Source: Chaetoderma sp. LZ-2023a
Taxonomy: Eukaryota > Mollusca > Caudofoveata > Chaetodermatida > Chaetodermatidae
Assembly (NCBI GenBank): GCA_034401795.1
Contig: CM067372.1
Coordinates: 38,940,861 to 39,004,860, forward strand
Direction: 5' to 3'
DNA length: 64,000 bases
The notes below the pieces were generated by a model that was not told the origin of the DNA, ran no database searches, and saw only the letters and a program-made list of their open reading frames with translations. Below, piece after piece: positions 6,851 through 40,905 of the stretch; positions within the stretch are counted from its first letter, which is position 1; every line of letters begins with the position of its first letter. A program made the translations under genes and the position numbers.

Positions 6851-7239
6851 CATTGTAAGCCCTAGACTGGAACACCACATCCCTCCTCTTTCAGTTTAAT
6901 GATACCGATTTATAATTCATGGATGATACAGAATTCTAATTGTCTAGGGCATATCACATCACATATCCACGGGATGGCACGCTGTACTCCTGTGCCAGTG
7001 GACTCTTATACAATAAATGCATTTATTATGAGCTTAAACATGCATTATTTCTTTTGCTAATAGAAGTAATAAACACTTATCCACAAAGACAGCACCAACG
7101 TAATCCATGCCAGTGGACTTTTGATAAAGCATGTTTGAATATCGCTCATAGAGAAACTATAAATAGAGCATGGTCTATAATTGTCCACGGCATGACACAC
7201 AGCCATTACGGGTTAACAAACAGACATCCAGGAGATTGA
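6851..7239. other. Unassigned sequence between repeats
   Basis: It holds two related stretches with the wording CCAGTGGACT (near 6997 and 7109), which suggests an old local duplication. No coding content was recognised. Confidence 0.35.
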
Positions 7240-7335
7240 TGGATTGACACACAGTCGTTGATGGATTGACACACGGTCATTGATGGATTGACACACAGTC
7301 TTGATGGATTGACACACAGTCGTTGATGGATGGTG
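7240..7335. repeat. 22-bp minisatellite, left part
   Basis: Four units of GTTGATGGATTGACACACAG plus TC. The array stops in mid-unit after GTTGATGGAT at 7324-7333 and resumes in mid-unit at 13630, so the sequence between is an insertion. Confidence 0.85.
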
Positions 7336-7868
7336 TAGTTCGGATCGACCGGTCGGATACCGGCCGTACCAGCTGAGCTGGGTACGCGCTGCCCGTCCTG
7401 GATTCGTTTCCTGAACACACCCCTCTGGGTAGAGCCATAAGCGTATATGGGCCTATGGGAGAGATAGCGTGTCGAAAAACGACTAATTTCATTAAAACGC
7501 ATGATGCGCATGCGCGCTAGGATGCTGTTTATATGGAGCGCATAGTTACGACCTAGATAGGATGGCGCTTTTAGTGTACCGAGATGGTACCCTGTAATCC
7601 TTATTGATTGCCTGTTCCCGTTAAATCTGGCAATAATCAAGACCAGAATTCAACGGGCTTTTCAAATCTGTAAACCATTTCAAAATCGGTTGAGAAATGG
7701 CTGAGTTATCCAGGGAAAAGTTCATGATTATCTTCAAAATATTGCCGAGACGTCATAACCACGTGGACGCAAAGCTTCTAGAATGTTGTAGAACGTTCAA
7801 CTGCGCTATTATTAGGTGCGCGCTGATTGGCTCTTGCTCGAACGATGATTAGATGAAGCCTGCGCCTG

Positions 7869-7892
7869 TGACGTCGCGAGGAGTATAAAAGG
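7869..7892 (+). promoter_or_regulatory. Putative element promoter: CRE-like site and TATA box
   Basis: TGACGTCG at 7869-7876 is followed by TATAAAA at 7884-7890. The spacing is right for a pol II core promoter firing at about 7915, upstream of the gag ORF on the same strand. This is a sequence match only. Confidence 0.5.
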
Positions 7893-7991
7893 AGAAGCGA
7901 TCCAGTGATCGAGAGCATCCTCGGCCAGGGGACGAACAGGTTGGATCTGTACCAGCTACTACAAGCGCGACAGACAATACGCGTCTTCTTT

Positions 7992-8032
7992 CTACTTCAA
8001 ATAATACTTACCAGATGTACTATTATGATAAT
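7992..8032 (+). repeat. Leader copy of the CAGATGTACTATTAT motif
   Basis: TAATACTTACCAGATGTAC followed by TATTAT at 8002-8026. With its flanks it is the reverse complement of 10620-10661. It lies between the putative start site and the gag ORF. Confidence 0.75.
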
Positions 8033-8055
8033 GTCTATTATCTAGTCTAGCTCAA

Positions 8056-8061
8056 AATAAA
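8056..8061 (+). promoter_or_regulatory. Possible polyadenylation signal AATAAA
   Basis: AATAAA lies about 150 bp downstream of the TATA box. That geometry would fit an LTR R region, but no second copy of the region was found, so the role is uncertain. Confidence 0.25.
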
Positions 8062-8778
8062 CAATTAAAACTCCGCACTCTCCTGGTCCTGCCCATACTG
8101 TGCCCGGGAATTACCATAGCCGCAGGTACCGAGTCAGTTCCCAATCATAGTCAGATTCGTCTATTTTGCGACTTTGTCAAGTCACGTTTTTCTAGAGCTC
8201 TTAATTTTCAATTTTACTGCGTATCTAGAGTTGTTTGGAGTGCGTCGTCTGTGACATCATGGAGGACAAAGGGAAATCATCACAGGGGCAGGTTGTATCA
8301 ATCTAGAATTTATACATTCGTGCCATAATGACTGTTTGAAATTTCCTTAAATTGGCACATTATTCTAAAATGGTAGCCATTGTTGGAGTCGCCCGGTACC
8401 CGTTAGCTTATTAGTGTTAATCCGGGTACTCGGTTCTTTCTCTCTGCGACTCAGTTCTTTCTAAGATGGATGCACTCTTAGCCAAGATGGCGGCACCCAT
8501 GATGTTTATTCCGCTTGGCTTCGCGTGTCTATGCACTCTATTTATGCCGATTTTTAGCCCTCACTTCATTGTCGAGGGTGTTTGTAGCGATCGGCAGTTA
8601 TTTCCTGGTCGTTTTAACGTTAGTTAACGTCTAGGTTGTGTTTTTAAAAATTTCACTCAAACAAGTTTCAAATATTTCTGCCTGAGGCTTGATTATCATT
8701 AATTGAGAGAAAGTTAATGTTTTCCTAGTAATTCAATTTTACTATCAGGTCTATTGTGCGTATTGCTCGTCATCTGTC

Positions 8779-10659
8779 ATGTGCAGCGTTTTAATTCTTC
8801 TTTGTGTTCGCAGAAAGCCAAGAACCAGGACACTATGTCAGAAGTGCAACAGGTTCATGAAGCGCAAATACTCTGGTCATCACTGGGTAGCTTGCGCGAA
8901 GTGTAAACTGGGAATCCCATGTGATGTGTGCGCCAAGTGGTCGTCCGAGATGGTGGTAGGATTTGATCGGGATCGACGTGTGCGCTTGGAGAGGATCGCG
9001 AGGGACAAGGCGGCCAAGCTGGATCAGGCGTCGTTGAGAGGACTGGAAGGTCGTCTGAATACACGTATGGATTCAGCACTGGGTGTATGGGTGGCCCAGT
9101 TCAAGGCAATGTTCGACTCATTGCAGTCCACGGTCCCATCGATGCAGGCTGGTGCAGGGCAACCTTTAGGTGGTCCGGCTAGTTCTGCGGAGGGACACGC
9201 ACCTGTCCCGTCTCTGTCCTTGGCTCAAGAGCCGACGGTGGAGGAGGAAGATCTTCTCATGGAAGATTCCGGCATGCCGGATATTTCGATGACTGCAATG
9301 CCCAGTACTTCCCAGGGGTCTCCCTCGGGATTTGTACGGGTTTGCCAGGCGTTCCGTCGGGCATTTTCCATCCAGGGTTTGTGCAACCCGTGGTGTCGGT
9401 GGAGCAGTGTTTTGCGGTTGCTACCGGCATCCCGGCGGCGTTAGGCGTGGCTCCTATCGGATTGCCGTTGCCTGCCGTAGGCAAAGCGGTCGTGGTCCCG
9501 CCTCCCGTGTTGGAGCCGATGGACTGTAGGGAATCCGTGTCTGGCGATTCGCTGGACACTGGTGCCGCTGGTGGTCGGGTTATGGATGCGCCCTATGTTA
9601 GTAGAGGTGCATCCCATAGCTCACAGCATGGATCGTCGGTGGCCTTCTCATCCAAGGGAGAGAGGGAAAATGAGAACGGTAGTTCTTTAATGGACAAATC
9701 CATTTTCTGCACCGAAGCTGAATGGGTGCAGGTCCTTGGCTGGATATCCGACCGTCTCGGGTTGGCATCTGAGCTTGGATCTCAGCGCGATCCGGCGATG
9801 GAATGGATGTCAGAGCGAGCGGCTAGCGCTCTGTCAAGTGGCTCTTCTGCCATGCCGACACTCCCGTTGGATACGCAGACTTCCGACATGCTGGAAGTTG
9901 TGGCATACCGTCTGGTTCAGCCGGAGTATGCACTGTCCAAAGCCCCCAAGGGGGTGAGGAGTAGGGTCCATTTTCCGGAGCAGGCCTACCATCAGTATGC
10001 CCGGGTTCCACGGCTTTCCGTCGGGGAGCGAGAGGCGCTGAACAGGCCATTGGCTGGGAAGTCTAAGGGCCATTCTCTTCCTTTGGTTTCCCAGACCAAT
10101 AATGATCCGTTTAATGAGCTTACGCTCATTGAAGATGCGGCGAGGGCAGCCATGGCTGCGCTCTCGCATGGATGTACCCTCCTGCAGGGAATGCTGTCCT
10201 GCGCGGAGGAGGGTGGGCAGGTGCCAGAGGCTGTTCCCGGAGTTATTCGGGACACCATGCGCCTGTCTCAAGATTGCCTGGCCAGGGTGATCACCAAGAC
10301 ATTGGCAGAACGACGGATAATGGTTCTCGATTGCGTAGAACCAGGACCAGAGATGAGGGCTGCGTTGTCATCTGCGCCTTTCATCGGTCCAGGATTGTTC
10401 GGCGGCTCGGCACGACAAGTTCTCTCCAAGGTCGCGTCAATGGTTGCAGAGCAGGAGGTAGTCGGCAAGCCGTGGAAGTCGACTAAGAGGACACAGCCGC
10501 AGCAGCTCTCAAGGACCTGGCCGTTCATCTTCATATAAATCCTCTAATAAGAGGCCGTATGAAGATGACAGGAATGGTGGCGGTTCGGGCCGCGGCGGTT
10601 CCTGGCTGTCAAAATCCGGAGTTTATCATAATAGTACATCTGGTAAGTATTATTCGTAG
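8779..10659 (+). pseudogene. DIRS-like retrotransposon ORF1 (gag), broken by two frameshifts
   Basis: The first segment (8779-9444 frame) encodes a cysteine cluster: CQKC at residues 20-23, HH at 34-35, CAKC at 39-42 and CDVC at 48-51 followed by W54, a zinc-binding arrangement. A Pro/Ser-rich linker with an acidic run (EEED) follows. Near 9330-9345 the reading shifts to the frame open to 10538, which ends with a block containing APFIGPGLFGG. This resembles the conserved PF.G..LFG region near the end of DIRS-type gag proteins, as I recall the family. Near 10500 a second shift reaches a basic Gly/Arg tail (KRPYEDDRN, GSGRGG) ending at the stop at 10657. A splice acceptor-like TTTGTGTTCGCAG ends at 8813, but the upstream ATG at 8259 would join in the wrong frame. 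The true start is unclear; ATG 8779 is the first in frame. The frameshifts may be decay or assembly errors. A programmed shift cannot be excluded. Confidence 0.6.
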
Positions 10660-10661
10660 TA
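10620..10661 (-). repeat. Inverted copy of the element leader at the end of gag
   Basis: Reverse complement of 7992-8032 with only a few mismatches. It supplies the last codons of the gag tail and its stop, so gag runs directly into a copy of its own 5' leader. This looks like a deletion junction or part of an internal complementary region. Confidence 0.7.
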
Positions 10662-10793
10662 GAATAAAAAAAGCATCCGCTTTTGTTTCTATGAGAATTC
10701 TTAATACTTACCAGATGTACTATTATTATAATAGTACATCTGGTAAGTATTAAGAATTCTCGTAGAAACAAAAAGCGGATGCTTTTTTGATTC
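10662..10793. repeat. 132-bp near-perfect palindrome
   Basis: Left arm 10662-10726 and right arm 10728-10793 are reverse complements with about three differences, around a single central base. The inner part is again CAGATGTACTATTAT and the outer part is AAAAAGCATCCGC. Such a sequence could form a cruciform, and it could also arise by template switching. The right arm contains the strong donor-like CTGGTAAGTAT. Confidence 0.9.
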
Positions 10794-13629
10794 GCTATGT
10801 GTCAGGTTTTTATCCCGTAGCGTGCAGTTCTTCAACCCACCGCACTAAAACAATTTTGTAACTCCCCATTTATGGGAGTAATTTGGAACTTCTGATAATT
10901 GTTCACGAATACTAACAGCTACATTCGGAACACAAATTTGCGGTGAGAGCCAGATTATGTGAGTCTACAGATGTAGAGACGGGATGTTCTTTGATGAATG
11001 ACTCGCCAGATCTGCCGGCCACGCCTAAGAGTGGTATTTCAATCGCCGCCGCACTAATATCGTGTCGGTTCTTTCGACTTTCGACCGCAGCAAGTAAACT
11101 CTGCCCGGTGCGTCTTCAGAGCTGGCTGACGTACCCAGCACCGTGGAGCTTTGTTTTGTATCCTCATTTGCCTCTGACAACACCCGCTAGTGACTGGTTG
11201 TTTACACCTTCCTTTTACTGACTGCTCGTTAGACATTCTATTAGGCCTACAGCACTAAGCGATGCACTCCCGCCATGAGTGTTCTTGCGGAAGTCTAGTT
11301 TGCGGGAAAACAGCTTGCGGGAGCCAACCTGGAACTTTCCAGCTTCCGGAGAGCGGATCATTTCACGTCGACTACGGATCGACGTATCAATTTCAGTAAC
11401 ACGGTAGCCTAACTTAGGAATGACTTCCAAGTATTCAATAACTATACTTCACAGTTTAATTATTTCTCTATATAAGTTTTGTTAATTATATTGTATCCGC
11501 AATAACGGTCCCGATGACTAAAAGGAACCGTAACGGTCTTAGGACCGCTAGTTATAATTTCTGTATTTGTTGATAATTATTCTCATTTTCCTCAATGTGT
11601 TGCTAACCGCACTATGGTAGGTTCGTTAACCTGTACTGTTATATATATTTTAATCACCTGACACCGTACTGATTGTTCAGGTTAGATTATGTATATATAT
11701 GGCCAGTGGCCATCCGTTCATATGTTTTGTTTATTCATAGAAAATATATGACTGCAGTGCACGTAGGAAACACTATACAGCAATACTTATATATGCAACA
11801 CTCTCCCGCCACCAACAATTTTTCACTGAGGTCGCTGTCCATGCTATAACTCTGTTTAGCCTGGCATGCTACCGACTAAACCTTTTCTATTCAGCTCAAT
11901 AGGATAGGTTCAAAATGATTAGAGACACTTCATTACATACTGTGTAATATACTCTTCTCTTCTGGTAGTGCGATAATCTAGCCCCGCACTCCGGTAAGAC
12001 TCATAACTAAGATTTTGTCTCTCTTCGTGTTCCACTCAGCCTTGTGGCTTCTTAATTATTTGGATGTCCCTATCCGCACCATGGGCTGATCCGACTGGGA
12101 AACTATTGGGGTTTCCGAGCGGTGATGGCCAGGGTGTGGTGTCACATACACATTCCCGTGTATCTTCGGATACTTAGTAGTTAGCACTTTGAGCCAATGT
12201 AGGAAAGCACTGCGAAAACACATGTATTAATTATTATCTTATTTACTGACGATCCTCCCCCCGCACCGCAGTGCAAAACTGGCAACTTGTATATAAACCT
12301 AATGACAGGTAAAACGGTTAGTTCCATAGGACCCGGTGATGGGCGAGATGCGCATCCCCACCGAATTCTGTTAAAATGTCTGGGCATGATATTTAGATCT
12401 GCCAAGCCCTTACGGGAAGGACATTTACGGTGGGTATTCGTCTCTCTTACCCCCACCATAACGATAAGAGAGATGGTCTAATAATGCTTGTGTGAAATGT
12501 AACCCCTGTCTTGTAATGTTTTATGTGGCTGCGGGGCGGGATGTCCGGATTCTTATCCAGTTCGGAGATCCTGCTACGTAACATGTATGAGCACTGTCTC
12601 TAGTATTGATGTCTTGGGGCGTCTGTTCTCCGTGACAGCCGTGTCTAATAGCTAGGTAGATATCAGCCAGTTGCGGCCTAAAATAATTCTTCTTCTGAAA
12701 ACAACTAAAGGGAATTAAGCAAAGCCGAAGGCCCGCAGAAATAAAGCGGCAACTACTAATACAGCAAACCAAGAACTACATAAGACGGTGACAAGGGAAT
12801 CCATCGGGAATCTTCCGTCCTGTCTTCACGTAAAACAGTACGCATCCCTATAGTCATAATCTCACTAGGTATGGTCTTTTCTTTCTAAAGCATTTTTGAT
12901 TGAAATATTACGGTAGGCCCATTTTTACCTACCTTTCTTCTTCCGCTTTAAGCAGTGGTGACACCTTCCCGAGACGGAGGCCCGCGCGAGGCACTTGCCT
13001 CTCGCAAGGATTCAGCGACGACGGTCCATGGCAGGATAATACTCCTCATTCAAAACTTGCATTAGTAGTGCCCGTGTGAGACACCAGACTTTTCGTCCGA
13101 GATAATCTTCTTTCCTTTAAGCTTAGAGGTATAATAACTTATATTAAGTTAACTAGGTACGTCTCGTGTACGGGAGCCTCCCTTGCGGGGATACCTCTGC
13201 AGACCTACGAGTCTTTGTGGTACCTCCGGTAGCCCCATGTTTAAAAGTTCATCTACCTGTCTCTGTCTCGTATTTTCGTATGCTCTGATTGTAGTTTTAT
13301 CTAGCATTAGCTTATATTTTTAGGTCACCAAATCAAATCTTGTAAGTCCATAGATCACGAAATTGCTATGGACAGGCACCTGGTGACACAAACTCGTGGG
13401 ATAAGACCGTTGTGTTTAACGTTCGCGACGATGGTCGCACGGCCCCACCGGAATGATTGAGTTCCACCGGCATTAGGAGCCAGTTTTTGTTTCCCGCAGG
13501 GCAATCTCGTACACGGTCCGTCACTCTGAGACCGGATGCTAACCAGCATCATCACTCGTCGTGCCCTTGCGGTGCGGCGAGTCAACATGATACACCGGAA
13601 CGGCCCAACACTACCCGGCGAGCTACAAT
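10794..13629. other. Unassigned CpG-rich half of the insertion
   Basis: All six frames are closed by frequent stops (longest ORF 92 codons). I saw no YADD or YVDD box, RNase H or tyrosine-recombinase motif. A small hairpin GCGAGGCACTTGCCTCTCGC lies near 12986-13007. In a DIRS element this is where ORF2 and the recombinase should be, so the region is either very old, unrelated or a structural region. Confidence 0.4.
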
Positions 13630-13812
13630 TGACACACGGTCATTGATGGATTGACACACAGTCGTTAAGGGTTGACACAGTTGTTGAGGGTTGACACATA
13701 GTCTGTGTTGATTGACACACAGTCGTTGAGGGTTGACACACAGTCAATGTTGGATGACATGCAGTTGTTGATGGTTAACACACAGTTGTTGATGGTTGAC
13801 ACACAGTCTTTT
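13630..13812. repeat. 22-bp minisatellite, right part
   Basis: About eight units of the TTGACACACAGTCGTTGATGG type. The first is close to the left array, and later ones diverge (GAGGGTTGACAC, GATGGTTAACAC). It continues the array broken at 7335. Confidence 0.85.
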
Positions 13813-39980: not shown

Positions 39981-40905
39981 GTATGTATGATTACTGTATT
40001 CTGCGGCTGTGGTAGTAGAAACATCCTACAGCTGCAATCAGTCCATCTTCGCTTTTGCCCACTTTGTCTTGTCCTCAGCCGAAATCCTTAGCTTCCTCAG
40101 GTCCATTCTTGACATGAGTGTACCGAGTCCTGCTTTCTTGTGGTCACATCGTAGCACGTAGCAAATTTATCCAATGACGTCCTCTTCTGGCTTTGTATTT
40201 GATGGCTCCTAGTAGAATGAATTCCAAGGCTCTCTGTGCCGGTGTCTCTTCTGGCATCCTTAGCACATGGCCAAACATGGACCATCTTTGCTGGGCATAT
40301 TTTACAGACAGCGGTGACGTATTACACATCTTGTATAGTGCATCGTTGGCAATTATGCTGTCTGGTCATCGGTGTCCAGTGATGGTGCATAGGTGTTTGC
40401 GGTGGCAGGCATCGAGTTTGTGTAGAGCTGCCTTTGGCGCTGGCCACCTGTTACAGTTATACAGCATCAAGGATTTGTGGGTTTCTCTGTATAAACGTAG
40501 CCTTTTAATCAAGGGCATCTTCAATCCACAAATCCATAGCTTCCAGAAAGACTGAAAAGCTATGTTCCCCACGTCGCAGCGTGCAGCAATGTCAGCAGTA
40601 CTGCAAAGCAGTGAGCCCAGGATTTTACTTTTCTTCCATGGTTCGCAGCCACGAAGTGGATCGTCATTTTCTTGAGTTTTATGCTTTGTAGATAGGTATA
40701 TGTGGGTGAACTCTGTTTTGGATTCATTCATAAAGAGATTCTCAATTTTTAGTTTGCTTGCAGCTATTGGGAATAGTTTGTCACATGGTTTCTTTTCCTT
40801 GTCTATGAAGTCCATATCATCGGCATATGCCATCTCTAGCGGCATACCCAGTATTGACACTGGGGGCGTTTGGTCTTGTGGAAGTCAGGTGTGAGATGTA
40901 GGAAT
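39981..40905 (-). pseudogene. Non-LTR retrotransposon reverse transcriptase, 3' fragment
   Basis: Read on the minus strand, the frame 40860-40366 (164 codons) begins next to LEMAYADDMDFID, whose YADD is the catalytic box of reverse transcriptases. Next come NESKTEFTHI and the conserved tail WKKSKILGSLLCSTADI, LYNCNRW and KLDACHRKHL. A second frame, 40329-40144, continues with RWSMFGHVLRMPE and RRGRHW. The C-terminus (KTKWAKAK, stop near 40045) and an AATCATACATACAC tail follow, matching 3858-4075 and 51930-52150. Catalytic boxes upstream of YADD and the endonuclease are missing, and the frames are broken. It is a 5'-truncated dead copy; the clade was not determined. Confidence 0.85.

Follow-up and report, generated by a model that had tools for sequence, protein, structure and literature searches.

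The window analysed here (a single stretch of 64,000 nucleotides from the mollusc Chaetoderma sp. LZ-2023a) raises the question of how an inverted repeat and a palindrome came to lie at the end of a gag gene. A first-pass annotation, made from the letters alone, saw a gag frame that reads directly into an inverted copy of its own 5' leader, followed by a palindrome of 132 bp. Two readings were offered – an internal complementary region (ICR) of a DIRS element, or what was left after ORF2 had been deleted – together with the remark that the arrangement had not been seen described.

The repeats themselves are real. The inverted leader copy pairs 7990-8031 with 10623-10664 (42 nt, 95% complementary), two to three bases away from the coordinates first given (7992-8032 and 10620-10661). 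The palindrome is likewise present after the leader copy: its arms are complementary at 94.7% over all 132 bp, from which it follows that some differences have since accumulated, and it comprises inner arms (10681-10726 and 10728-10773; 46 nt, 98%, with a 1-nt centre) and outer arms (10662-10684 and 10771-10793; 23 nt, 96%). The inner arms do hold further copies of the word found in the leader: a 15-base word occurs in four exact copies in the 64-kb window (0.32 expected; four reached in 0 of 100 shuffles), and no additional copy was found in the window when up to two mismatches were allowed. The longest inverted repeat (up to two mismatches) in 7989-10792 is 46 nt, whereas 200 dinucleotide shuffles averaged 14.2 and never exceeded 19, and the fold of the strand at 10620-10800 is far stronger than that of its own shuffles (z = -18.6). 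As to gag, an open frame does enter the repeat, but this frame (open from 10462 to a TAG at 10657) differs from the main gag frame (9183-10535), which stops earlier, at 10536-10538.

In published DIRS1 anatomy the ICRs are complementary to both ends of the element and overlap by 3 bp, and the right end bears an extension (PMC3266345, in part). The reverse complement of 10623-10727 consists of the right end (10728-10793), a shared TTC and the left end (from 7990 onward); 100 of the 105 ICR letters match the joined ends, and the alignment contains four substitutions, one single-base gap and an additional base at the end. The two ICRs overlap on 3 bases that jointly spell the circle junction, and alignment of the ICR with the termini shows the right end to exceed its left-end equivalent by 26 bp. 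The first reading of the repeats, as a DIRS internal complementary region, is thus borne out base by base (Table 1). The left terminus starts at the base where the family copies also start. The inverted terminal repeats (ITRs) of the window copy are inverted with respect to each other (8002-8032 vs 10722-10752, 97%), unlike the split direct repeats of PAT/Ngaro-type YR retrotransposons; the right partner of the conserved left ITR, kept in relatives, is mostly gone. DIRS1-like elements have a block of at least 10 nucleotides common to both ITRs and both ICRs (PMC3266345, in part), and it is to this block that the four word copies correspond.

Table 1. Coordinates of the window element and its parts (positions in the 64-kb window).
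Feature	Position	Strand	Basis or remark
Full extent of the DIRS1-like element with its two deletions, 2,804 bp	7990..10793	+	Ends from ICR matches and family alignments
Element ends: left xTTCTAC, right NTC after T-run	7990 and 10793	+	ICR matches, family alignments
Left terminus (lTer), start of left ITR	7990..8032	+	Over 7990-8031 reverse complement of 10623-10664, 95%
Conserved left ITR, 161 bp	8002..8162	+	Inverted at right end of L039-L043, 95.7-97.5%
Long leader	8033..8814	+	Common to full-length relatives; aligned within about 7990-10505 of L039-L043, L048
gag (ORF1), broken	8815..10598	+	Similarity to gag of relatives; frames; 89-bp gap vs L040
Junction of deletion 1	10598..10599	.	Lost compared with L040: 3,688 bp with the end of gag, RT/RNaseH/Dam and the recombinase-like frame
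3' tail directly upstream of ICR	10599..10622	+	Same tail in L039, about 590 bp past end of recombinase-like frame
Left ICR (lICR)	10623..10664	+	Reverse complement of lTer
3-bp circle junction common to both ICRs	10662..10664	.	GAA; AAT at 10663-10665 in published register (PMC3266345, in part)
Right ICR (rICR), left arm of palindrome	10662..10726	+	Reverse complement of 10728-10793; 62-nt arm in relatives
Junction of deletion 2, palindrome centre	10721..10728	.	198 bp of inner right ITR gone; aligned to L039 7799-7996, L040 7737-7934
Right terminus (rTer) including its extension; forms the right arm of the palindrome	10728..10793	+	Inverted match to rICR; family alignments

The element belongs to a large family. 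Over the genome (2.44 Gb) the 15-base word was found at 12,079 places (6,030 forward and 6,049 reverse), as against 20 places (6 + 14) for a control in which the pattern was read backwards; assuming three exact words per complete copy, this suggests an estimated family of about 4,000 copies. Among the first 100 places listed, 66 form 22 triples in the order +,-,- or the reverse (defined by spacings below 400 and below 9,000) and 34 lie outside triples. The spacing from lICR to rTer is 289-300 in all 22 listed triples, and that from lTer to lICR is 6.1-6.4 kb in 19 of them (5,314, 4,852 and 4,481 in the rest).

Fourteen longer loci (L039-L052) were fetched, several of which had been selected as complete or as unusual. 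The elements in L040-L043 and L048 align to that of L039 over 6.75-6.81 kb at 91.7-98.1%, and these full-length relatives carry gag, RT-RNaseH-Dam and recombinase-like frames. In L039 and L040 gag is a stop-to-stop frame of 683-688 aa, and the pol frame matches RVT_1 (E = 1.1e-22 and 4.2e-22) plus RT_RNaseH and, weakly, Dam (E = 0.11 and 0.022). The recombinase-like frames, 935 and 1,127 aa stop-to-stop, overlap the RT-RNaseH-Dam frame; their phage-integrase SAM-like matches (E = 2.5e-4 and 4.5e-4) lie under the Pfam score cut-off, and L040:6300-7022 gave no Pfam match. Of the two enzymes for which the first-pass annotation had proposed to look in relatives, reverse transcriptase was thus found in L039 and L040, while tyrosine recombinase is represented by a match below cut-off; relatives devoid of the leader and ICR repeats, named there as contrary evidence, did not turn up, nor did any full-length relative whose ICR fails to complement its own ends. 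Reverse transcriptase, RNase H and methyltransferase, present in L039 and L040, are missing from the window copy; because it has neither reverse transcriptase nor recombinase, its membership of DIRS rests on anatomy and relatives. The remaining loci are less complete: L046, L047, L051 and L052 have lost internal sequence, L050 matches in part only, L044 and L045 (apparently one sequence in two contigs) match in their 3' part only and have a different short right ITR, and L049 has a right end only. L046 (G000 C14 near 13.14 Mb) holds two internally deleted copies with a 5,315-bp period, apparently a tandem duplication, and in L012 and L013 (G000 C4 near 39.769 Mb) the ICR segment is tandemly duplicated, 306 bp apart, within one element.

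DIRS1-like elements of molluscs and other eukaryotes, such as AcaDIRS and LgDIRS, have the same order (lTer-ORFs-lICR-rICR-ITR-rTer), a right extension, the same 3-bp ICR overlap, and the gag, RT/RH/MT and recombinase-like frames seen in the full-length relatives of the window copy (PMC3266345, in part). The ICRs measure 42 and 65 in the window and 39-46 and 67-88 in the mollusc elements listed in the same source, while the relatives, at 6.75-6.81 kb, compare with 3.8-6.3 kb in its table. Unlike AcaDIRS and LgDIRS as described there, the window copy is without pol/YR and inner right ITR, and the right end of its family is usually NTC. Dictyostelium DIRS-1 resembles the window copy in having an ICR complementary to both ends, which has been proposed as the template for missing terminal sequence, with a circular cDNA (PMC5633606, in part); it differs in host and in its longer conserved ITR (304 bp for DIRS1-2; table in PMC3266345, in part).

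Comparison with the relatives shows what the window copy has lost. In the alignment with L040, 3,688 bp are missing from it after 10598, 198 bp after 10721 and 89 bp (in gag) after 10504; the 198-bp loss is also seen against L039. Alignment to L039 with free gaps splits deletion 1 into pieces, whereas BLAST and the L040 alignment give a single junction: in BLAST the gag match runs to window position 10598 and the match to the 3' tail starts at 10593. The recombinase-like frame of L039 ends at 7085 and its left ICR word lies at 7705; the ICR being well outside this frame, the fusion of gag to ICR in the window is a product of deletion 1. The second reading, a scar left by removal of ORF2, therefore holds as well, about 3.69 kb having gone between gag and ICR relative to the relatives.

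Deletion 2 accounts for the palindrome. In L039-L043 and L048 the right ICR and the right end form 62-nt arms around a spacer of 204-205 bp, and in the window this spacer has been cut to 1 nt. No second spacer-less palindrome of the family was found in the 14 longer loci, and no opposite-strand word pair closer than 196 bp among the 100 places listed (the window pair is 16 bp apart); the count of triples is no test for palindromic copies, since these have four words in the order +,-,+,-. The arrangement as a whole is not new: a leader copy, two ICRs and an inverted end make up the usual DIRS1 plan, and what sets the window copy apart is just that right ICR and right end have lost the spacer that separates them.

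The near-perfection of the 132-bp palindrome might be taken to mean that a separate, MITE-like hairpin was inserted beside gag. However, the arms are the right ICR and right terminus of the family, in order and register and about 93-98% identical to most of the complete relatives, where 62-nt arms enclose the spacer; such an insertion is refuted by these facts, and its probability is vanishingly small. The palindrome might also be a product of assembly, the right ITR having been collapsed or folded back, for near-perfect palindromes are hard to sequence and a polymerase or assembler could skip the loop at the centre. Against this, the two arms are mismatched at several bases, normal spacers were assembled in other copies, and deletion 1 and the lesions in gag are independent of the palindrome, all of which makes an artefact very improbable.

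Those lesions are several. The window gag shifts frame somewhere in 9183-9441 and again near 10504, where the 89 bp are absent, and is for these reasons considered broken. It is 83-85% identical to the gag of L039, L040, L042, L043 and L048 and 80.5% identical to that of L041. This modest identity to the six fetched full-length copies, together with intact termini and ICR and the existence of internally deleted copies (L046, L047, L051, L052), would be in keeping with a distinct gag-only DIRS subfamily that has the palindrome built in and multiplies as such, non-autonomously. Yet a 261-base query over both junctions was matched end to end by the window alone (40 of 2,364 candidates scored), and L044/L045, with their other short right ITR, have no matching gag: a subfamily of this kind is decidedly unlikely. 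We are highly confident, on the strength of anatomy and relatives, that the window element belongs instead to an abundant DIRS1-like family, as a non-autonomous copy with internal deletions.

Gag has no Pfam match, and searches of gag pieces or of a 25-base word against viral and prokaryote collections gave no confirmed relative. The LAP2alpha domain (in TMPO and ZNF451) is a domesticated DIRS1 gag, from ORF1 of a DIRS1-like element (PMC4495291, in part), an origin that it shares with the window gag. Two structure searches with the window gag gave weak local similarity to LAP2alpha (PDB 2v0x; E = 0.37 and 0.9); this match was rejected, being non-significant, ranked below unrelated allergen chains and absent with the full-length gag of L040.

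How might the internally deleted copy have arisen? In the DIRS1 model of the literature the transcript would be without terminal sequence, the ICR pair (complement of right end plus left end) would act as a template or splint on which the ends are restored and the cDNA is circularised, and tyrosine recombinase would insert the circle with no target duplication. In the window copy, deletion 1 would have fused gag to the pre-ICR tail, gag then ending on ICR codons without selected meaning. Deletion 2 would have taken almost exactly the loop of the single-strand hairpin formed by right ICR and right end, leaving the palindrome; the near-exactness of this loss suggests that a polymerase crossed the base of the fold-back, most likely while the cDNA was being made or in subsequent repair. 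As it has no enzymes of its own, the window copy could move only by way of proteins from full-length copies.

The ends of 26 other elements bear on insertion. On the left, a variable base (A/T in 23 of 26) is followed by TTCTAC; on the right, the T-run is followed by NTC in 22 of 24 unbroken cases (TTC 11, GTC 9, ATC 2; the others are one TGC and one ATT), a count that leaves out the broken L055/056 and L067/068. The common flanks of L061/062 and L063/064 mark them as one event. This pattern fits what recombination over 3 bases without duplication would produce. Templating of the ends by the ICR is addressed by two comparisons. The lTer and lICR are identical over 39 bases in 21 of the 26 other elements (the window copy differs at two), 15 of the 39 being fixed since copies were found by exact word. 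Between ICR and own right end, 22 mismatches were counted in 23 elements (after removal of the window copy, a duplicate and two elements with broken ends), as against 28.0 with shuffled partners (P = 0.0044). A second set of 29 places, selected for resembling the window copy, gave no templating signal (105 vs 104.4); it includes the window, copies from the first sample, misread partners for L012/L013 and the truncated L010/L011. Identity of ICR and right end within an element weakly suggests templating. At right-end alignment position 58, by the junction, several ICRs have T and their own right end G, which is unexpected if the end was copied from its own ICR, unless there is a mutation hot spot beside the A-run.

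One locus may preserve end synthesis itself. In L049:454-999 (G000 C8) the right end is followed directly by an ICR and pre-ICR tail in reverse complement, giving 168-nt arms around a 210-nt spacer, and the variants are held in common with the upstream tail of the same locus. It looks like a right end extended on the ICR, and so like a fossil of end synthesis, as a single case that may have another cause; end extension on the ICR belongs to a DIRS mechanism that is called proposed and not fully proven (PMC5633606, in part).

The core of the termini and ICRs contains a further motif. GGTAAGTAT occurs in the window only in the four word copies (8004-8012, 10642-10650, 10704-10712 and 10742-10750) and presumably pairs without mismatch to the 5' end of U1 snRNA, matching the full target at 10 of 11 positions with its neighbours; one unrelated site (61258) likewise matches 10 of 11 of the target. 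Scored with a weight matrix, 17 of the window's 7,165 GT sites, among them the four word copies, are equal or better, which makes GGTAAGTAT a strong predicted donor, though not the best in the window. L049 also carries two 3'-end copies from another DIRS-like family, whose pol region is about 66% identical. Its ICRs are built in the same way (55-58 nt arms and a spacer of 230-231), and its core reads TATTAGGGAGGTAAGTAT; GGTAAGTAT lies in this locus near 1186, 1447, 1509, 6667, 6909 and 6981. Ungapped, motif-anchored comparison of the right ends of the two families gives agreement at 9 of 9 motif bases and at 19 of 55 others. In the window and L039-L052, 66 of 66 occurrences fall in DIRS termini or ICRs; the loci having mostly been chosen for holding the word, the informative part is the count of zero elsewhere in 366 kb, both strands. 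A search of the literature for splice sites in DIRS inverted terminal repeats returned nothing, and a single review came up for splice donors. That the core carries a selected, outward-facing U1-type 5' splice donor is a speculation that we think unlikely to be right, with a companion reading that takes L049 as a genomic fossil of right-end extension on the ICR; binding of recombinase or of a nucleoprotein would explain the conservation of GGTAAGTAT as well.

The surroundings of the element offer several observations. It lies within a larger segment (7332-13628), on either side of which stands part of a 21-22 bp minisatellite (7236-7331 and 13629-13808) that the segment interrupts. The segment has the ends TGTAG...CTACA with a possible 4-bp duplication ATGG/ATTG, and has a G+C content of 0.45-0.48 as against 0.36-0.38 around it; perhaps it is a mobile element of greater age that later received the DIRS copy as an insertion. 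Just upstream of the left end, facing the element, a CRE-like GTGACGTC and a TATAAAA box were noted by eye (7868-7890). Pfam scans of selected window ORFs gave no match in the element, including the two leader ORFs scanned, or in the flank ORFs scanned, and two weak matches elsewhere; a remnant at 40369-40884 resembles reverse transcriptase weakly (RVT_1, E = 0.029). Neither Rfam nor tRNA scans found anything in the window.

What was found in the window is ordinary: a broken copy of a known type of retrotransposon. Its family, estimated at about 4,000 copies, could nevertheless test the DIRS replication model from sequence alone, by comparison of termini with the ICR of the same copy, by the rate of fold-back loop loss, and by ICR-based end extension of the kind that L049 suggests. 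If the companion reading of L049 is true, that locus would be direct evidence for ICR-templated end extension. If the donor is real, it would let transcripts that exit the element at either end be spliced, or shielded by U1 from early polyadenylation; it would then serve the life cycle of the element or offer a route to exonisation of gag. Confirmed in other species, the motif would give a further role to a region that has until now been accounted for by complementarity.
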